Positions 6,806 through 40,636 of a stretch of 64,000 bases of DNA are shown in pieces. A program made the position numbers and the translations under genes. The stretch is from Scenedesmus sp. ARA3 (Eukaryota > Chlorophyta > Chlorophyceae > Sphaeropleales > Scenedesmaceae): contig RWJK01001567.1 of NCBI GenBank assembly GCA_004335835.1, forward strand, positions 1 through 64,000, written 5' to 3'. How positions within the stretch are numbered: the stretch's first letter is position 1; each line of letters starts with the position of its first letter. The notes beneath the pieces are model-generated. The model had not been told where the DNA came from. It made no database searches and was given only the letters and a program-made list of their open reading frames with translations.

Positions 6806-7380
6806 GAACAACAGCCCCAAGAGCTACTGCAGGTGCAGCGGCTGCAGGCCAGACGCAACACAACAAGCACGCATGAGCCACCCGATCGGCCTGCACTACT
6901 AATCAGCCGCCCCACCCACACAAACACGGCCGCTATCTGACCAGCCCGTGAGATTCCCACCCCCTGACAACAACATCAACCCTCCTCCTTTCGTGTGTTT
7001 GCTGGGCAAATGGCGGGGCAAACAAAGCAATCCAGCCGCCCTGCCCACACGAACAGCACCACAGGAATCCCATGCAGCCACATCAAGAGCCAGCTGCCTT
7101 TCACATTCACAATGAATCACATTGTGTCCATGCTGCTGCCCCAACAGGGCTGGATACTGTCTCAAGCTGACACAGCGCACATTGCGCCGGAATGCTTTAT
7201 GACAGTGTTACTAACGGCCCTGGGTAACACGGCCCTGCGGCGGGCTTGCAGCCAAGCAGCAGCACAGTTTGCGCGAGCCCTGCCTCAAGCCGGCATTGTG
7301 TTGAAGCACACATTCCAGCAGCAGCATTTATAGTAGTAGTGCCTACAAGCGGCCAGTACAGGGCGCCTACTGGCCGACGC

Positions 7381-21900: not shown

Positions 21901-24204
21901 GCATGGTGTACGCAGTACCCACCTCGAAGGCGTAGGTGGGTGACACCGTGGTGAACTTCTGGCAGTAGTTGGCCGCCTCTGCGATCTTCTTCTGCCCGTA
22001 GTTCATGTTATGGATGGTGAAGATGACCTGGAAGTTCAGCGCGATCAGCAGCAGGTGGGCAAGAAGCATCAGAAAACCAGAAGCTTGAGAGCATGCTGCT
22101 GATGTGCTTATCCAGATAAAAGCAGCAACAAGGGCACATTGCCGCTGGACGCTACCATCCATCCGCAATGGCACAGCAAGATCCTGAAGCAAGATCACCC
22201 AGCCCACATGCTTCCTGCAAGCTTCCTGCAAGCTGCTGCATGTTTCCTGCAAGTTTTTGCAAGCACCTTGGGCTTCGACAGGCCGTACGGCTGGTAGTCC
22301 TCCCAGAAGGACTTGGCCACGTGTGCAGTGCTCCAGTCGTGGCAGTGCAGGATGTCGGGGTTCCTGCCAGTCTTCAGCAAGAACTCCAGCGCGGCCTTGC
22401 AGAAGAAGTCAAAGCGCACCTGCAAAGGTTTGACCGGACAATAACATGTCAGTAACAAGCCACGTACCAGCGCCAGGACTGCATAAACTCAACATATCCA
22501 CTGTTGTGCAAACATTTGCAAGCTTGCAGGACCCGTCAGCTCTCCGACACCAACTCCTTCCCAAACCCCAAAACCCTGCTCTCCTTTCAACCTTCAAAAC
22601 CTCCTGCCTCAAAACCTCCTGCAAAACCCTCCCGCCGTGGCACGCCGCCCACCTCGTCGTCGTAGCGGCCGTACACGGTGGGCGTCTGGAAGAAGCCGTT
22701 GCGCGGCTCGATGAAGAAGCAGCGCAGGCCCTCCACGATGACGGTGCTCACAAAGATGCGCGTGCCGCCCCAGTCAAACTCCGTCTCGTAGCGCATCTGG
22801 CCCGCCAGCACCGGCGACTGCAGGAAGAAGTCGTACCTGCGCGACAAAATGACGAATGCAAAAACTGGGGTTGTATGTAGAATGTCATGCAGAGCAAAAG
22901 TTCAGATTGGGGGTTGTATGGGTCAAGCGGAGCATCTGGCCAGGCAATCAGAGACAGCAATTGCAGGTGACAGTCATGAAACAACCCACACCTCTCGACT
23001 TCCATACCATCAGGCAGGGGTGATGACAACAATAACATAACAATGTAAAAATGTAACAGCCGCCACGCACCGCGGCAGGATGACCTCCACCAGGTGGCCC
23101 TCCTCCTGCACCGCCCTGCCCAGCGCTGTCACCACGTCACCCAGGCCGCCAACACAGGTGCAAGCCATATGCCAGCGGTCAAAATACCAACAAAAACACA
23201 AAAACATAACAATGTAACAGCCGCCACCCACCGCGGCAGGATGACCTCCACCAGGTGGCCCTCCTCCTGCACCGCCCTGCCAAGCGCTGTCACAACGTCG
23301 CCCAGGCCGCCGACCTTGGCCACTGGTGCCATCTCCACTGCAATGTTGACCACGTGCAGCCGCCCAGGCATCTTGCCGATGCCGCCCTAAAAGAACAGCA
23401 GCAGCAGCAGCAGCAGCAGCAGGAGTTAAAGAGGTGTGTGTGTGTGTGTGTGTGTGTTTTTTGTCGCATGCTGCAGCAGGGGTGTTGACCACGTGCAGCC
23501 GCCCAGGCATCTTGCCGACCTGCCGCCCTGAAGTAACAGCAGCAGCAGCAGCAGCAGCAGGATGAAGGGTGTGGGTTTGTGGGATGCTGCAGCAGGGGTG
23601 TTGATCACGTGCAGCCGCCCAGGCCTTGCCGATGCCGCCCTGCAAGAAACAGCAGCAGCAGCAGCAGTTGCGTGAGTGGCTGCAGCCGGGATGTTGCCCA
23701 CGTGCAAACCCCCAAGCATCTTCACATCGCGGCTGTCATAGATGCCTGCACACCTCGGTCAAACGAAGTCAACTCTTCTCACTTGGATGAACCCTGCCGC
23801 CAATTACACATGCCTCTTGCAGTGATGGGCAGGTGGTAGTTGAAGCCGTTGCGGCCGTCATACAAGCTGTCGCTCCACAGGCAACGCCTGGTCAAACACA
23901 GTCTACCGTCAGTTAAACACAGTATCGACAGTCAAACATGTTGTGTCCCCAGCTCCCCATGAGGTGCAGGTGGTAGTCCAAGCCGCTGCGGCTGTCATAC
24001 AGGCCGTTCACTTTGCAGTCAATGCCCGGGTCAAACAAAGTCGAAGCTCAGTCAAACACACTGCTGCCAGTCAAACATACTCACGGTTATGGGCAGGTGG
24101 TAGTCGAAGCCGCTGCGGCTGTCGTAGAGGCCGTCACCGCCTGGCACGTTGCTGAACACAAAGTCCAGCTGCAGCGCGTCCTTGGGCACGTTGAAGCGAA
24201 TCTG

Positions 24205-24236
<32 letters not shown>

Positions 24237-27200
24237 CTGAGCACTCCTCCTTGATCATTATGACAAGCGCTGCCCCTCAGGCACAGCCTACAGCTGCCCT
24301 CCCAGCGCGTCGTCAAGCAGGGCTGAGCAGCAATTGTGCTGTTAACCCCACGGCTTGATGATAGGAAGCTCAACACGCTGATACATGCTGCCTCTGGTTC
24401 AGCAGCAGCAGCAGCGGCAGCAGCAGCAGCAGCCTCACCTGCCAGTGCCTGCCGTTGATGCCTGGCGGTCGCATCGCTGCAGGGCCCAGCTGGCGCTTGT
24501 GCGCCCAGCGGTTGAAGCCGCCTGTGAAGTAGACTTGGCTGCAGCAGCGCAAAGCAGCACAGCACAACAAATGAAGACAGTGTTAGCTGTACGCTCAACA
24601 TGAACAGCAAGCGATGTCTGAGATTTGAAAGCCTTTGCTCCGCCTCGCGCTGTTGGTGCTGTTCCCTCCACAGCATGACGAGAGTCGTCACCGATGCAGC
24701 ACTTTGGAGCTGCTGCAAAAGGTAGACTGCAGCCAACACAGTGATACCACTCACTTGCTGCCTGCCAGTGCGGTGTCGTCGGGGCAGTAGTAGACCGTGA
24801 CGGGCTTGCCCGCCTCGGAATTTAAACAGGTTTTATAAGTCAAAGAATAACAATCCAAAACAATAAAAGCGCTCACTTGCTGCCTGCCAGTGCTGTGTCG
24901 TCGGGGCAGTAGTAGACCGTGACGGGCTTGCCCGCCTCAATGACCTCAGGCTCCGTGAACATGACGTGCTTCATCTGCCGCCGCAGCACCGCCTTGGCCT
25001 TCTCCTGCAGGCACATAAGTTCAACACAATTTGAAATATGTTATGATGGCTCCGTGAACATGACGTGCTTCGTCTGTTGCTGCAGCACCGCCTTGGCCTT
25101 CTCCTGCAGGCACAGAAAGTCAAGGCAATTCAAATTATGTTATAACAGTCAAATCATGCATTGAGATGTTATGATGGCTCCGTGAACATCACGTGCTTCA
25201 TCTGCCGCCGCAGCACCGCCTTGGCCTTCTCCTGCAGGCACAACAGACACATTTGAGTGTGTTTACTGTGTGCTACAGCACTTTTTAACAGTCACACGCA
25301 TGCTGTTGATGGCCTGCAGAGCCAAATTTTTGGCAGGATCGCCAGGCACCATATCCAGCAGCAGATTCCGCCCCGGCGGCAGTCACAACCCAATATTTTG
25401 TGGCTCATACTATCTTTGGCATTGTTATAGGGCCCTTAATTGACGACCAGGACCCACTTAGGACTATTGGATTGCTCTTCCTGTGAATCCATCAACAATG
25501 CATCCCACCTTTTGCTCGGTGCGCTCCTTGAGCCGCTTGGCGTCCCTGATCGCCTCCTCCTCCTCTGCCTTGAGCCGCTGTTGCTGTCTCCTCAGCCAGG
25601 AAGCCCTCTTACACCAGAAGCGATCAAACACCAGAAACCAAGCTCTCACCTGTACTGCGGTGCGCTGCTTGAGCTGCTTGGCATCTCCGACTGCCGCACA
25701 GTCTGCAAGATAACCTGTCTGTTTTGGCCTCAACAACAAAAGCAGCGTCAGTTTACTGAACTCACCTTTTGTTCCGTGCGCTCTTTGAGCCGCTTGGCGT
25801 CCCTGATCGCTGCCTCCTCCTCTGCCTTGAGCCGCGTGGCAGTCTCCTCAGCCAGGAAGCCCTCAAAGAAGGACTCAGCCCACTCGTTGACCGTCTCAGC
25901 CGTGTAGGGCGGCGGCAGTGCCACAGCCACCTGCGCGTGCATTGCAGTAGCAGCGGCAATGTGTTTGCATCCATCAGCCTTGAATGTGCACATGTCAGCA
26001 GCCCCAGGAGCGTTGCGTGACGAGAACTCCAGCTACAACAGCAGCGGTCTAACGGCAAGTGAGTTGATTGTGGAGGCCTTGATCGCCACAGGTAGGCGCA
26101 GTGATAGCAATTCCGGCTGCATATCCCCCTGGTTGCACTTGTGTCACACTGTCATGTCGGCTGCCTCACATTTTTTCAAACCAACCCCAAAGCCCCACCC
26201 ACCTTGTGGTCCTTGCCGCCGTTGTTGTCCCAGCCGTTCTCGCAGTTCACCACAAAGTTCACGCAGGCCGCGTCCTTGGGAACTTCAAAGTCAACTTCCC
26301 ACCAAAGTTCATCCTCCTCGCCGGTGATGCGGCTGAACTTCATGGGCAGCGGCTGCTCCTTGATGGCCCAGTTGTTGAAGCCGCGTAGCAGCTTGGGCAC
26401 CTGCTGGCCCTCCAGCATCGTCTCTGCAGCAGAATTAACACGTAACACGTTACAAATGTAGCAATGACATAACAACTTCATGGGCAGCGGCTGCTCCTTG
26501 ATGGCCCAGTTGTTGAAGCCGCGCAGCAGCTTGGGCACCTGCTGGCCCTCCGGCATCATCTCTGCAGCAGAAATAACACATAACTTGTTATAAATGTAAC
26601 ATATGGTGTAACAATGTGACTTGCGATGTAACAACCTTGTGGGCAGAGGCTGCTCCTTGATGGCAGCTCAACTGTGCTGAGCTGGCTCTCCACAATTCTC
26701 CCTACCGCAACACAGCAAATTTAACATGTTACAAGATGCGACGATGTTGTCATACATTGTCACTCACTTGATGTGACGACCTTGCCCTCGGGCCGCTTGT
26801 CTTTACTTCAACAGCTTGTGTCACACTCTGTCACAATGCTGTCACACTAATGTCACATAACGTCATATTTTTGTCACCCACTTGATGTGACGACCTTGCC
26901 CTTGGGCCGCTTGTCCTCAATCCACGCCAGCGGCCCCGCCTTGCTGTTGTACAGCAGCGTGGCTGTCTTGCCAGCCACCAGGGGGGTGGGTGCCACGCTC
27001 CACCAGGTCTTGGCATCAGGGTCATCAGACACCTTGCGCTTGTTCACGCCGCCCTCGCGCAGCCACACAAAGCCGTTCTTGAGGTCTGCGGGGTGGATAG
27101 ATACAACAAACAGAAGCAATACACGCAAAGTTTTGATGGTGGTTCTATGTGGTCGTTCTCCTTGCGCTTGTTCACGCCGCCCTCGCGCAGCCACACAAAG

Positions 27201-29778
27201 CCGCTCTTGAGGTCTGCGGGTATGACAAACAAGCACAGGACGCACGATAAGTGGATGCTGCTGATCGGGTCACACAAGAAAGCATTTCTCAGATCTGCGG
27301 GGTGAAAACATAGGGTTGAAAGAGGTTTGTGAGATGGGGGTGGGTGCCATGCTCCACCAGGTCTTGGCATCAGGGTCATCAGACACCTTGCGCTTGTTCA
27401 CACCGCCTTCACGCAGCCACACAAAGCCGTTCTTCAGGTCTGCGGGGTGGGAGAAAACGACAAATAAATCAATGGTAAGTTTATTTGATTTGTTTGGGGT
27501 CATCGCTGACCTTGCGCTTGTTGACACCGCCCTCGCGCAGCCACACAAAGCCGTTCTTCAGGTCTGCGGGTGCAAAAACAAGCACTGGATTCTGATTGGA
27601 TGCACGATAACTGGATGCTGCTGCCTTTGCCGCACTCAAATACGCCACACACAGGCATTTCTCATTTTTTCAACAAACAATTGCACATGTTGCTGGCCTT
27701 GCTGCCTGAAGCCAGCAAAAAGTTCACACACGCCATGGCTGTGCAGGAAAATACAAAACACACACGCCGCACCTGTCACGCGCTTGGTGGCGTTCTCCCT
27801 GTCCCGCTTCTTCTTCTCCTCAGCAGCCTGCTTGGCCTCCTCCGCACGCCGCGCCTGCAGCAGCAGCAGCAGCAGCAGCAGCAAGACAAGATCAGCAAGG
27901 GCAACGACAACGCCCGGCAGTTCCAAGCAAACCACCGGCATACCCACAGCCATCATGCCAACGAGCAGCGTCATCTCAGCCCTGAGAGCCGCACTTGGTT
28001 GCCGTGCATGCCCAACCGTGCATGCCCAAACATGCCCAAACATACCAAGTCAACCGCAGCGCCGCACCTCCTCCGCCTCCACTGCTGCGCGTGCCTGCGC
28101 CTCCTCCCGCTCCACCGCCTGCACCTGCCACTCCTCCCAGGTGATGCCCGCCTGCAGGGCGTAGGTGTAGTCCTGGCCGTTGTTGTTGTCAAAGAGGCTC
28201 TCGCCGTCCGTCATCACAAAGTTGAGCTCGTACACGTTCTCCGGGATCTGCAAAAATGACAGTTAGTGACAGTATGTGACAGTTGGTGACAGTAAGGCAG
28301 CAGTGATTGTCCTGGCCGTTGTTGTTGTCGAACAGCGACTCGCCGTCCGTCATCACAAAGTTGAGTTCGTACACGTTCTCCGGGATCTGCAAAAATGACA
28401 GATAGTGACACATGTTAGTGACAAAAGTCTTGTGACATCCAGTCATTCACCTGGTGACAACGTCAGGAGGGCGGATTGTGATAGCGTGTTGCTTTGATTA
28501 TTGATGGTAATCAACCACAAGCGCCCCACATTTGCACCCAACTTCACACCAAGAACTTCACGCCAAGAACGTTACACCAAGCAGTTCCCACTGGCACTCA
28601 CCCTGAAGCGTGTGGCCCAGAAGTCGGAGTTGTCCACGTGCGGGATGGGGCTCGGGTAGAAGTCATTCTCCCACCACAACACCACCAACTTCACACCACA
28701 AGCTTCACACCCAACTTCACACCGCCACTCACCCTGAAGCGCGTCGCCCAGAAGTCGGAGTTGTCCACGTGCGGGATGGGGCTCGGGTAGAAGTCCACGC
28801 GCGCCTGCTCAGGGTTCATCTCCCATGCGTTGTAGCCCAGGGTTGCCTGGATGCGGTTGCGCTCACGCAGCGCCTCGCTCTGAGTGCGGTTGTAGTAGAT
28901 CATGACGTCCGCGCCTGCACAAGAAGACCAGGAAATAAGGTTAGTTGATTTATGGCTCCCCAGCACACCCCAAACCATGAACACAGCAACCCCAATGCTG
29001 CCAGAGCAGCAAGCTGTGGCAAAGAAGCAGGCACAGTGATGATACTATGATGCCATGATGCTGGACAGCAGTGCTTGCGTAGACAGCCCACTTGGAGCGC
29101 CGGGGGACCTTGGGCGGGAGGTCTCCTGGACAAGCAATGCTTGAAGGTGCGCAGCTTTGCAATTTTCATGCTAGACTGTCCAACTTTACTTTGCACAAAG
29201 CAGCAGATGCTCAACGCACCCGCCACCGGCTTCGCAGGCGCCGTCACAGCCAGGTTGAGTGCAACGCAAGACCCTTGATCCCACCTGCCACCGGCTTCCC
29301 AGGCACAGTGAAGATGAGCCAGCTGAGCCGCGTGGTCGCGTTTTTGGGGCAATCAAACCCTCACCCCACAGCAAAACCCAAAACACGAACTGCAGAACCC
29401 TAGCGCACCTGCCACGGGCTTCTCAGGCACTGTGAAGATGAGCCAGCTGTGCCGCGTGGCCGCAAGCTTCGTTGGATCATGCGTGTCAACCTCCTTTTGC
29501 GCATTGGCACGCAGCACACGCTTTGCCTCATCACGCCGAGCCTGCTCCTCAGGGGTGAGCTTTTTCACCGCTGCCACAGCCTTCTCCACTGGATCAGGAA
29601 TGTCCAGAGGCTCCTCCTTTTTAGGAGGAGGCGGAGGCGGACCCACATCCACGATCGCAGTGCTGCTGCTGCTGCTGCCGGCGGGCCTGCTGCTGCTGCT
29701 GCTGGCGGCGGCTGGTGCCTTGCTAGGCGCTGCTGCAGCCGGCGGCGCGGCTTTGGCAGCAGCAGCAGCAGGTGCTGC

Positions 29779-36400: not shown

Positions 36401-36790
36401 GCTCTGTCATCAACATCATCCTTACTTAGGCAGTTCTGTCAGGGTTAGAACCTGCCTTGAGTCACCCAATGTGGTGTGACCCGATGCTGTTGTGTTGTTC
36501 AAAGTCGCCTCTTCCTTTGGCTGCAAACTCATGCTGATAAGTTGCTGCTGCTGCTGCTGCTGCTGTGTACGATCAATGCAGTGAGGTGATGCTGTACGGG
36601 CACTACCGCGGCTTCTGCTCCCTGGGCATTGTGTTCCAGACCATGGACAACCTCGATGCACAAACTAATTGCTGCTGCTGCTGCTGCTGTGTACGGTCAC
36701 TGCAGCGAGGCGATGTTGTACGGGCACTACCGCGGCTTCTGCAGCCTGGGCATCGTGTTCCAGACCATGGACAACCCCAATGCACACTAA

Positions 36791-36833
<43 letters not shown>

Positions 36834-39800
36834 GTACGGTCAATGCAGTGAGGTGATGCTGTACGGGCACTACCGTGGCTTCTGCTCCCTGGGCATTGTG
36901 TTCCAGACCATGGACAACCCGCACCTGCGCCGCGCGCTGGGCATGGCAGCCCACCAGTCAGGTGTCATGATCAACCGCATCCAGCCCACCACCAGCACCG
37001 CACAGGTGAATGCTTTTGTCGTGTTGGATGTTGAACAAACAGCCCGGCTCCGCAGGTGAATGTTTTTGCTGTGTTGGATATTGAACAAGCAGTCTGGTGT
37101 CAACCGCATCCAGCCCACCACCAGCACCGCGCAGGTGAATAAGTTTGATAGCCATCATATTCATTATATGATTGTGATCACCAGTGTGGCGCCATGCTCG
37201 TCGCATCCAGCCGCCACCAGCACCGCGTGGGTACGTGTCTGTGATGCGGTTGTTTTTAGTGTTCATGGTTAAGTCTTGTGTCAACCGCATCCGGCCCACC
37301 ACCAGCACCACGTCGGTACGTTTCCTTGGTCCTTGATCCTTGGTCGGTACGTGTCCTTGGTCAAGATGTGACTAAATGACCAGTCTGTCGTCATGATACA
37401 CCACATCCAGCCGCTAGCACCATACAATTGTGTTGTTCCAATATCAAAAACCTTATGTCCAACAGTCAGTCGGACATCATGATCACCTGGCCCACAAACA
37501 GCATATAAATGGCAACAGGGCTTGATTCATGCTAGCCACAGGTCCAGAGTAGCAGTTTGTGTAGCCATTATGACCGTGGGACCCCAAACTTGTTGCTGCG
37601 CCTGCTGCTGCTGCTGCTGCTGCCCCTCAGGTGCTGCGCAAGGGTGACGTGCTGATGGAGTTTGACGGAGTGGCCACCACAAACAACTCACCGTGCTTGT
37701 TGTTGCTGGTGCTGCTGCTGCCTCACATTGCTGCTGCTGCTGCTGCTGTAGGTGTTGCGCAAGGGTGACGTGCTGATAGAGTTTGATGGAGTGGCCATTG
37801 CTAATGATGGCACGGTTCACTTCAGGGCGCGTGAGCGCATCTTCTTCACCTCCCTCATCACCCTAAAACCCACCGGCAGCACGGCACGCGTCAAGGTGGG
37901 TTTACGACTGAGGGTTTATGGTTTGTGTTTCAGGGCCTAGGCACGGTGCACTTCATGGCGCGTGAGCGCATCTTCTTCACAAGCCTCATCACCCTAAAAC
38001 CCACCGGCAGCACGGCACGCATCAAGGTGGGGTTACGGCTTAGGGTTCCCGGTTTTGGATTTCAGGGGCTAGGCACGGTGCACTTCGGGGCGCGTGAGCG
38101 CATCTTTTTCACAAGCCTCATCACGCTGAAACCCACCGGCAGCACGGCACGCGTCAAGGTGGGCTCGGGGTGTGAAGGGTTGAATGTCATGCGCGGTGGC
38201 AGCGTGCTGGAGTACGACCTGCAGCTGGACCCGCTGCAGGCTGCCCGTGCCTGTGAACATGTCTGTTGTAATGCCCTGTTCTCATATCTGTATGTGGTTT
38301 CTGCCTTATTTCTCCTGCAGGTGCTGCGTGGTGGTTCTGTGCTGGAGTACGACCTGCAGCTTGACCCGCTGCAGACGCTGGTGCCCGTGCACAAGTACGA
38401 CCAGCTGCCCAGCTACTTCATCTACGCAGGTGCGGCCTGGGATTCACTGATAAAGTTATATTTGTGCTGTCCGTCGCTTGTGTGGGTTGTTGTATGTCAC
38501 CTGCCTTGACAAGGTGGGCTATTGCAAGTACGACCAGCTGCCCAGCTACTTCATCTACGCAGGTGCAGTTCCGTTTGATGCTTTGAAAAACGTGCCGGTT
38601 CTTGCAAGTTTCAGTTGTTGTGTGTGTGCTTAGCCAACCCAGGCGAGTACAAGTACGACCAACTCCCAGCTACTTCATCCACGCAGGTGCGGCCTGGAGT
38701 CGCATGGCAGAAGTGTGGCATTGCATGTCTTTACAGAGTGTTTGCATTAGGGTTGTATGCAAGCTGAGAGAGCTGGTGCGGTTGTGCTGGCTGAACTTTT
38801 TGCAGGTCTCGTGTTTGTGCCGCTGAGTCAGCCGTACCTTCACGAGTACGGTGACGATTGGATGAGCAACAGCCCCCGGCGGCTGGTTGACAAGGCGCTG
38901 AACACGCACCAAAAACACCGACTACTTTGCCTCACCGTTCCTCCTGTTTGGTTGAATGGCCGGAGTAAAACTTGCAAACTTGTCATTTCTTCAACTGACT
39001 GTCAGTTTGTTGTTACTTCTGTGTTTTTTGAACATGCAGGTCTCGTGTTTGTGCCGCTGAGTCAGCCGTACCTTCACGAGTACGGCGATGACTGGATGAG
39101 CAACAGCCCGCGGAGGCTAGTCGACAAGGCCCTGAACAGCCTCATGGCAAAGCCCGACCAGCAGATCATTGTGCTGAGTCAGGTGCTGGTCGACGACATC
39201 AACACAGGCTACCAGCAGTTCCAAAACCTGCAGGTGGGCTGTTGTTATTTGTGATTTTGTTTGAAGAATTATGAAGTCACGAGCGGGTTATCAGGCGGGT
39301 CAGCTGAGCAGCAGCGTTGTTCGTAAGGTGCTGCCGTTGACATGCACATGCGCGGCTGGTGGACAAGGCGCTGAACAGCCTCATGGCCAAGCCTGACCAG
39401 CAGATCATCGTGCTGAGTCAGGTGCTGGTCGACGACATCAACACGGGCTACCAGCAGTTCCAAAACCTGCAGGTGGGCTGTTGTTATTTGTTGTTTTGGT
39501 TGAAGAGAGATGCAGTTGAAGAGAGATGCAGTCAGAAGCGGGTTACTGGGCAGGTCAGCTGAGCAGCAGCGTTGTTCGTCAGATGCTGCCGTTGACATGC
39601 ACATGCGCGAATGGTTGACAAGGCCCTGAACAGCCTCAAGGCCAAGCCTGACCAGCAGATCATTGTGCTGAGTCAGGTGCTGGTCGACGACATCAACACG
39701 GGCTACCAGCAATTCCAAAACCTGCAGGTGGGGCTCAGTTTGTATGTTGTGGTTGTTTGTTGTGGGCGACATGTGAGGAGCACTATCCGTGTCTTGCTGG

Positions 39801-40404
39801 CAGCGGCAGATGTGTGGCAGCTGCCCTGTGTGATGGAATGATAACAGTGTATGTTTTTTCCTGTGCTTGTGGCCAGTGTGAGTGTATTATAATAATAGTG
39901 TGCTGAAGTTCAATTCAAACACTTACGAACATCACTGGCGCTCTGCTGCCACGCTGCTGCTGCTGCTGCGGTGCGCAGGTGCTGCGTGTGAACGGCGTTG
40001 AGGTGCTCAACCTGGCTCACCTGAAGCAGCTCATCCGAGGGCCAGCTGCTGCAGCAGCAGCAGTAGAGCCGCCGCCAGATGCAGCAGCAGCAGCAGCACC
40101 AGCCGTAGAAGCAGCAGCAGTAGTACCAGGCGACAGCAGCAGCAACGGCAGCAGCACGGTGACGGTGAAGATCACCGTGGGCAGCAGCAACGGCAGCAGC
40201 AGCAGCAGTGAAGCAGCCGCCGGCAGCAGCAGCAGCAGCAACGGGGAGCTGTTCAACAGCGAATGGAATGACAAGTACATTCGGTTAGAGCTTGAAGACG
40301 ATCGCGTCATCATAATGGAGCGGGCAGCAGCAGATGCAGCTACGGAGCGGCTGCAGCGGCGCTACAGGGTGCCCTACCTCAGCAGCGCTGACCTGGCCGA
40401 CTAG
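33416..40404 (+). CDS. DEG2: DEG2-like serine protease (HtrA family, organellar)
   Basis: ATP-independent serine endopeptidase. Ten exons in phase: 33416-33807, 34891-35051, 35271-35398, 35666-35810, 36218-36338, 36849-37005, 37752-37895, 38321-38429, 39040-39233, 39979-40404; 658 residues from the first ATG or 638 from the ATG at 33476. An Arg/Gln/Ala-rich N-terminus (about 85 residues) suggests plastid or mitochondrial import. The catalytic triad is complete: His163 (LLLTNAHVV), Asp194 (GHDVDLALL), Ser278 (GNSGGPAL). Then PDZ-like parts ([55 protein letters not shown]) and a poly-Ala/Ser insert before the C-terminus YLSSADLAD. Motif order and wording follow plant DEG2 more closely than DEG1, DEG5 or DEG8. 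DEG9/DEG10 are the next alternatives. The introns are full of exon echoes. Confidence 0.93.
34762..34850 (+). repeat. Acceptor-side echo of DEG2 exon 2
   Basis: Repeats the PDYFL.WQNHP to [12 protein letters not shown] segment behind a CACAG acceptor. It ends just before the catalytic His codon and has a 1-nt deletion, so it is not translatable throughout. Confidence 0.92.
35457..35526 (+). repeat. Donor-side echo of DEG2 exon 3
   Basis: Re-encodes [18 protein letters not shown] plus GTGCGT. Five synonymous and two replacement codons relative to the true exon end at 35398. Confidence 0.93.
35880..35936 (+). repeat. Donor-side echo of DEG2 exon 4
   Basis: Repeats [15 protein letters not shown] plus the GTGTG donor, identical over more than 40 bp to 35767-35815. 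Confidence 0.95.
36056..36128 (+). repeat. Acceptor-side echo of the DEG2 active-site exon, with a stop
   Basis: Repeats [17 protein letters not shown] behind CCTGCAG, but the CAG codon after the copied block is TAG. Use of this acceptor would truncate the protein right after the catalytic serine. Confidence 0.93.
36568..36776 (+). repeat. Two acceptor-side echoes of DEG2 exon 6
   Basis: 36568-36656 and 36690-36776 repeat [24 protein letters not shown] behind CTG tract plus ATGCAG or CTGCAG acceptors. The first has one synonymous change. The second has five synonymous changes (including serine TCC to AGC) and one replacement. Confidence 0.95.
36794..36832 (+). repeat. (CTG)13 tract before the DEG2 exon 6 acceptor
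   Basis: Pure CTG array ending 16 bp before the real 3' splice site at 36848. Confidence 0.95.
37086..37316 (+). repeat. Three donor-side echoes of DEG2 exon 6
   Basis: Copies at 37086-37139, 37195-37232 and 37276-37316 repeat [11 protein letters not shown] and its donor with increasing decay. The donor GT is lost or altered in the last two. Confidence 0.9.
37623..37677 (+). repeat. Acceptor-side echo of DEG2 exon 7
   Basis: Repeats [15 protein letters not shown] behind CCTCAG, then diverges. Confidence 0.92.
37933..38165 (+). repeat. Two donor-side echoes of DEG2 exon 7
   Basis: 37933-38031 and 38060-38165 repeat [20 protein letters not shown] to RVK with donors. Most differences are synonymous, and both copies use AGC where the true exon has TCC for the same serine. 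Confidence 0.95.
38177..38240 (+). repeat. Acceptor-side echo of DEG2 exon 8
   Basis: Repeats [22 protein letters not shown] in the true exon appears as GGC-AGC here, synonymous at both codons. Confidence 0.92.
38524..38692 (+). repeat. Two donor-side echoes of DEG2 exon 8
   Basis: 38524-38568 and 38645-38692 repeat [13 protein letters not shown] plus the donor. The second lacks one codon's worth of sequence. Confidence 0.92.
38803..38905 (+). repeat. Acceptor-side echo of DEG2 exon 9
   Basis: About 100 bp encoding [19 protein letters not shown] to VDKALN behind TTGCAG. Eight codons differ from the true exon and all eight are synonymous. Confidence 0.96.
39356..39735 (+). repeat. Two donor-side echoes of DEG2 exon 9
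   Basis: 39356-39482 and 39606-39735 repeat [20 protein letters not shown] to NLQ with donors, in units of about 250 bp that include the intron start. Five of five and four of five differences are synonymous. Confidence 0.96.
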
Positions 40405-40471: not shown

Positions 40472-40636
40472 CAAGCGGCGGTACAGGGTGCCATACCTCA
40501 GCAGCGCTGACCTGGCCGACTAACGACACTGCACATGAGCTTTAGCTGACTAGACCCCGGGCTCGGGCTTTGTAACGGTCTGCTGACCTGGACGACGAAT
40601 TTCATTGTAACAGTTGGCGGACCTGGCGGACTGAAG
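40471..40636 (+). repeat. Terminal-exon echoes after the DEG2 stop
   Basis: 40474-40522 repeats [15 protein letters not shown] and a stop codon. Shorter remnants of GACCTGGCCGAC with stop lie at about 40580-40598 and 40616-40635. TGTAA motifs at 40467, 40571 and 40606 accompany the copies. Confidence 0.85.

Follow-up and report, generated by a model that had tools for sequence, protein, structure and literature searches.

Echoes of exons in DEG2 and starch synthase III of a Tetradesmus obliquus-like alga: tandem duplications with an excess of silent differences

Two genes and the partial copies of their exons

Protein identities place the 64-kb window studied here (the whole stretch of DNA analyzed, C1179:1-64000) at Tetradesmus obliquus or very near: the DEG2 (DegP10-like) query matches OEZ86_014578 at 99% identity over 55% of the query, and the starch synthase III (SSIII) query matches OEZ85_014309 at 96% identity over the whole query. 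The genome searched comprises 87.27 Mb in 1,567 contigs. In the window we placed exactly the 10 exons of DEG2, on the plus strand, and 20 exon pieces of SSIII, on the minus strand; the first SSIII exon, visible in a separate comparison, is absent from the analyzed set, and the low-complexity SSIII exon x2 was omitted from codon training, strain comparison, and the null model. Two reference proteins bear on these models. P0001, a 647-aa protein whose 2,238-bp contig is presumably a spliced transcript, matches 100% of the DEG2 query at a listed identity of 100% and differs from the window DEG2 exons at 3 of 641 residues; P0121, the annotated T. obliquus SSIII, differs from the window SSIII exons at 3 of 960 residues, with the low-complexity piece excluded. 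Both contain complete exons only.

Beside these exons, in neighboring introns or after stop codons, lie partial copies of them, here called echoes, which are real duplications. We aligned 51 echoes in DEG2 and SSIII; of the 30 exon pieces, 23 have at least one. The echo segments are absent from both P0001 and P0121. The features central to this report are as follows; counts are synonymous : replacement codon differences between echo and exon.

DEG2
36543..36652, plus strand: first upstream echo of exon 6 (36850-37005); 1 : 0
36670..36777, plus strand: second upstream echo of exon 6, its junction similar to that of the first; 4 : 1
37591..37676, plus strand: upstream echo of exon 7 (37752-37895), Met kept where the window exon has Ile; 2 : 1
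37940..38031, plus strand: first downstream echo of exon 7; 3 : 2
38072..38163, plus strand: second downstream echo of exon 7; 6 : 1
38806..38904, plus strand: upstream (acceptor-side) echo of exon 9, exonic part, with its own TTTTTGCAG before the echo; offset -234; 8 : 0
38905..39039, plus strand: spacer from echo to exon 9, unalignable to the corresponding intron stretch
39040..39233, plus strand: exon 9, complete copy, found in P0001 and P0003
39354..39472, plus strand: downstream (donor-side) echo, copying the second half of exon 9; offset +239; 7 : 0
39614..39727, plus strand: second downstream echo of exon 9; offset +494; 5 : 1
40474..40522, plus strand: echo of the terminal part of the last exon, beyond the stop codon of 40355-40404; 2 : 0

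SSIII
28068..28247, minus strand: exon x4
28309..28410, minus strand: upstream echo of exon x4; 4 : 0
24879..25004, minus strand: exon x9
25048..25143, minus strand: upstream echo of exon x9, directly adjoining the intron end of the exon copy; 0 : 3
25176..25242, minus strand: second upstream echo of exon x9, sharing its partial-exon junction with the first; 1 : 0
23231..23386, minus strand: exon x12
23027..23153, minus strand: donor-side echo of exon x12; 4 : 0

At the exon 7 site, the Met of the upstream echo is also found in P0001, P0002, and P0003, so the older residue is that of the echo.

Comparison of the window with itself gave 67 direct repeats, all at offsets below 500 bp, and five inverted repeats. 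In the window and the sampled loci together, offsets below 200 bp (n = 132) have a median of 124 and quartiles of 111 and 140, and a second rise lies near 220 to 270, about double 125 bp. The echoes are tandem duplications of about 125 bp that span exon-intron junctions or trail stop codons. Direct copies carry an intron end together with part of the exon, several of them abutting, which fits tandem duplication across the exon-intron boundary; many arrays consist of at least three copies, and both echoes of SSIII exon x9 break after the identical exon base. The gene region has 47 duplication pairs, of which none lies entirely within coding sequence and 39 touch an exon, against 28.7 expected (standard deviation, 3.7; largest value in 1,000 shifts, 41). 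This modest enrichment could come from any one of survival, slower decay, or targeting. Several upstream echoes begin in (CTG)n runs beside the splice acceptor (36543-36845 and 37591-37751), and such runs may favor breakage or slippage.

Direct repeats were also present in 15 of 19 sampled 10-kb stretches and were not seen in the other four (L011, L014, L020, and L021), two of which are mostly N. After exclusion of overlapping loci (L033, L041, L043, L044, L046, and L048), 38 loci besides the window remained for counting. The sampled loci suggest that the process forming echoes is genome-wide.

Silent and replacement differences

An earlier note on this DNA, made from hand counts, held that echoes differ from their exons almost only at synonymous sites. 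Its counts for DEG2 and SSIII were borne out: around DEG2 exon 9, "8 of 8" for the upstream echo was recovered as 8 : 0, "5 of 5" downstream became 7 : 0 (39354-39472), and "4 of 5" was matched in kind by 5 : 1 (39614-39727); in SSIII, "4 of 4" for the echo of exon x4 and "3 of 3" for the donor echo of exon x12 both came out as 4 : 0. All 51 echoes together cover 985 codons with 135 synonymous and 104 replacement changes (pS, 0.201; pN, 0.046), and their pN/pS of 0.23 (family bootstrap, 0.16 to 0.30) lies under the ~0.5 expected from a constrained exon paired with a neutral echo. The ratio in DEG2 and SSIII therefore stays below the range of 0.5 to 1 that the note had named as fatal to its claim, and a silent excess exists in these genes. 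As a general rule the claim does not stand: its five examples, at 28 : 1, are indeed the extreme, and the other 46 echoes give 96 : 84 (pN/pS, 0.28). Hand counts are inflated because echoes of one exon share the changes private to that exon.

To set an expectation, we derived a null from the substitutions seen in 39 non-coding pairs, which gave a synonymous fraction of 0.240 for neutral change in these exons and 0.388 for a constrained exon paired with a neutral echo. Codons lying under a single echo in DEG2 and SSIII show 57 : 33, or 0.63 (bootstrap, 0.50 to 0.77), with the null outside the interval; in 32 other families, drawn from the rest of the window and the 38 genome loci, they show 50 : 56, or 0.47 (0.34 to 0.60), with the null inside. 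By our own arithmetic, about 56 of the pooled 107 : 89 would be synonymous under the null, so about half of the 107 would be in excess, mostly in DEG2 and SSIII. The silent excess is thus beyond chance in DEG2 and SSIII, and elsewhere it is weaker or absent.

Exon segments in the sample were called by codon usage, not from homologs; the frame calls were right in 82 of 82 cases at a score above 0 and in 83 of 85 without a threshold. From the sample, 135 pairs were set aside as ambiguous or non-coding and four were excluded as repeats within proteins (one at L005, two at L011, and one at L012). Read in the two wrong frames, the DEG2 and SSIII echoes have synonymous fractions of 0.18 and 0.12; the second set, that of the other families with outwardly extended segments, gives 0.14 and 0.15 in the wrong frames and 62 : 87 in the right one.

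Where 20 nt or more of intron flank could be aligned, as in 20 of the 51 echoes, that flank provides a clock. In these, silent divergence (0.156) equals flank divergence (0.159), and replacement differences reach 0.36 (0.18 to 0.53) of the neutral-echo prediction. Changes private to the exon are 13 : 0 in DEG2 and SSIII and 8 : 1 in other families. Those private to the echo are 28 : 43 (0.39; 0.27 to 0.53) and 37 : 48 (0.44; 0.30 to 0.56), respectively, against 0.24 for a neutral branch; these higher fractions are suggestive, and the branch of an older echo may itself reach 0.388 under the null. By side, 73 replacement differences arose in the echo, one in the exon (the Ile/Met site of DEG2 exon 7), and eight are unclear. 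A fit with two classes, about two-thirds of echoes being neutral-like and one-third about 0.85 synonymous, beats one class, in a count that takes exon changes common to several echoes repeatedly. The synonymous fraction drops as total divergence rises (0.75, 0.78, and 0.46), a confounded trend, and neither echo side, distance, nor frame showed a clear trend in this fraction.

Several simple sources of the excess were considered and rejected. The echoes were found at the DNA level, and selecting on total similarity should give silent changes no advantage; mutation bias is insufficient, as the non-coding spectrum yields only 0.240; and exons do not change faster at silent sites, the rates being equal (13 of 261 codons exon-private, 28 of 570 echo cells echo-private). 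Gene conversion alone would homogenize copies without sparing silent sites. Introgression from the NREL 46B-D3 lineage was likewise set aside: the exon 9 echoes read AKPDQQ, as does the window, and P0002 reads QKPEQQ.

The strongest single case of silent bias without translation is at L016, in a gene that we take from its translation to be an SNF2-type helicase, where an echo at 6905-7045 lies beyond the stop codon, in an untranslated 3' position, and shows 12 : 2. The last exon of this gene also has four more partial copies on its upstream side (L016, 6079-6510), with identities of 82 to 91%.

Translation, assembly, and the origin of the excess

The earlier note offered three explanations: that echoes are or were translated, that the assembly interleaves haplotypes, or that the copies diverged under selection before they were joined. 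Current or past translation, as alternative or mutually exclusive exons, would account for the coding-type constraint seen in part of the set, and the frame at 38751-39251 is open across echo, spacer, and exon 9; in P0017, a transcript-derived DEG2 protein of another alga, the C-terminal end reads by eye as the end of exon 7 in two imperfect copies, possibly a retained echo. Against translation, P0001 and P0121 lack echoes, and the truncated ends are not splice sites: by eye, 2 of the 22 upstream echoes, both from one array, have a GT placed precisely at their end, and 3 of the 29 downstream echoes have an AG placed precisely at their start, each about what chance gives, so that the usable acceptor and donor per copy typical of mutually exclusive exons were not found. 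Offsets ignore frame (19 of 51 are multiples of 3), nine of 51 echoes are frameshifted by gaps in their coding part, the 985 codons include two stop codons, and both echoes past stop codons, in DEG2 (2 : 0) and at L016, are silent-biased too. General translation of echoes is unlikely, and we regard translated exons as a very improbable source of the pattern.

An assembly that interleaves two haplotypes, with echoes as misplaced alleles, has in its favor that the genome is a scaffolded draft with N present in 9 of the 19 sampled stretches. The window itself is free of N. Misplaced alleles predict unique junctions, yet the identical partial junction recurs within single arrays, and many arrays have three or more copies. 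Copies of exon 9 also appear on contigs of other data sets with different break-points: in ORF translations, P0330 and P0241 (each from a 24,113-bp contig, taken as one) jointly carry at least three copies of the exon 9 start, broken at a point different from that in the window, and P0337 and P0338 (contigs of 2,381 and 1,982 bp) each end in a truncated exon 9 copy. An automatic check for protein self-repeats was uninformative, being blind even to the obvious repeat of P0241. DEG2 has one high-identity locus in the assembly, the matches on other contigs reaching only 34 to 61% identity. Misassembly is accordingly extremely unlikely; the echoes are a real peculiarity of gene structure, present in more than one data set, and the original claim about them was partly right and overstated.

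Our preferred reading, held tentatively and at slightly less than even chances, is real tandem duplication followed mostly by neutral decay. The residual silent excess would then reflect divergence from a time when both copies were functional, probably as alleles that out-of-register exchange later joined. Duplications of about 125 bp would cover an exon-intron junction or the end of a last exon. As the anatomy and the echo-free proteins suggest, the complete copy would still be spliced and read, and the partial copy would leave with the intron or stay in the 3' untranslated region; duplications at exon edges would thus be harmless, and those wholly inside an exon would not. The working exon can change only synonymously, as its private changes show, and this contributes silent differences to the pairs. 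The excess over neutral decay in DEG2 and SSIII would have been gained when each copy still served as a working exon, probably in the form of alleles in a heterozygous lineage, and the diverged copies may later have been set side by side by exchange between arrays. Divergence under selection before joining, the third of the earlier explanations, is in this form the source we prefer for the residual excess, by inference and not by direct demonstration.

Offsets clustered near 125 bp and its double, recurrent junctions, exon 9 copies in other data sets, the exon-private and echo-private counts, the replacement changes lying on the echo side, the 57 : 33 against a null of 0.388, the flank clock at 0.36, the two-class fit, and the 12 : 2 at L016 all speak for this reading as a whole, without bringing it quite to an even bet. 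The related Scenedesmus NREL 46B-D3 is likely diploid with separated haplotypes, according to excerpts of its report (PMC7955037), which supports joining of alleles. Against it, the independent sample of 50 : 56 is compatible with plain neutrality, a second DEG2 haplotype is absent from the assembly, and the two-class fit counts shared exon changes more than once; moreover, with so few residues differing from P0121 and P0001 (three in each), silent divergence between alleles may fall short of what the most diverged silent-only echoes require.

Plain neutral echoes are the main competitor, in our judgment somewhat unlikely: the excess would come from the exon side of the pairs, with hand-picking and recounted exon changes added to it, and the extra in DEG2 and SSIII would be a fluctuation confined to two genes. 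The other families, whose interval takes in the null, the 62 : 87 with extended segments, the extreme standing of the five hand-picked echoes, and the nine frameshifted ones all agree with this; the interval of 0.50 to 0.77 in DEG2 and SSIII, the flank clock with its upper bound of 0.53, and the echo-private fractions (with the caveat on older branches given above) do not. Alternatively, recombination within arrays might repeatedly restore echo sequence to the reading frame and so impose weak selection against replacement mutations in echoes. Arrays clearly expand, and the replacement rate of echoes in DEG2 and SSIII is about 0.36 of neutral; on the other side, by a rough estimate, a return rate that fits silent divergence of about 0.2 exceeds the mutation rate only severalfold, which is too little without very high diversity, and two echo classes are not predicted. 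We consider this improbable. It is a long shot, too, that untranslated echoes serve as a standing reserve of exon sequence, with frequent recombination of arrays between haplotypes bringing them back into frame and so exposing introns and 3' untranslated regions to selection on protein.

Known systems and use of the echoes

Mutually exclusive tandem exons resemble echoes in being tandem exon copies with low replacement divergence; echoes differ in being truncated, in lacking a second splice site, and in occurring past stop codons too. In excerpts of one report, a tandem genomic duplication across an intron-exon boundary (PMC4974935) likewise leaves a partial exon copy that is spliced out within the intron. 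That system concerns one gene and a new intron, whereas in DEG2 and SSIII together 23 of 30 exon pieces have echoes, which lengthen existing introns and show a ~125-bp unit, arrays, and copies after stops. Small tandem duplications made in break repair by fill-in and end-joining are, like echoes, short direct copies of unique sequence, with a size set by the length of the staggered break; as excerpted, they were shown for breaks of 43 to 50 bases in cells of mouse and human, against echo units of ~125 bp (PMC8355091). By analogy, echoes may be founded by fill-in at staggered breaks. Introners, in the portions of the account consulted (PMC9860276), resemble echoes in having greatly altered the intron content of a single lineage; they are one element copied into many genes, whereas each echo copies its own exon. 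A family of that type, with one sequence at many unrelated loci, was not found in the window, where all 67 direct repeats lie less than 500 bp apart, and in the genome search the exon 9 region matches itself alone, which argues against one element at many loci. Among the results listed in literature searches on exon fragments, intron gain, and tandem repeats in algal introns, none described such echoes.

The mean intron of T. obliquus is 462 bp, compared with 230 to 302 bp in three other Sphaeropleales, by figures from excerpts of a genome comparison (PMC5966456), and echo duplication could help explain these long introns. Each exon-echo pair combines a constrained copy with an intron-flank clock and could test the origin of the ~125-bp tandem duplications, as well as whether haplotype exchange exposes non-coding copies to selection. 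Echoes can also mislead gene prediction and by-eye estimates of dN/dS. Different in kind is the internal repeat in a long open frame at L011 (6401-6881), where 74 codons differ by replacement and 10 synonymously; we judge it to be a true protein repeat, unlike the echoes.
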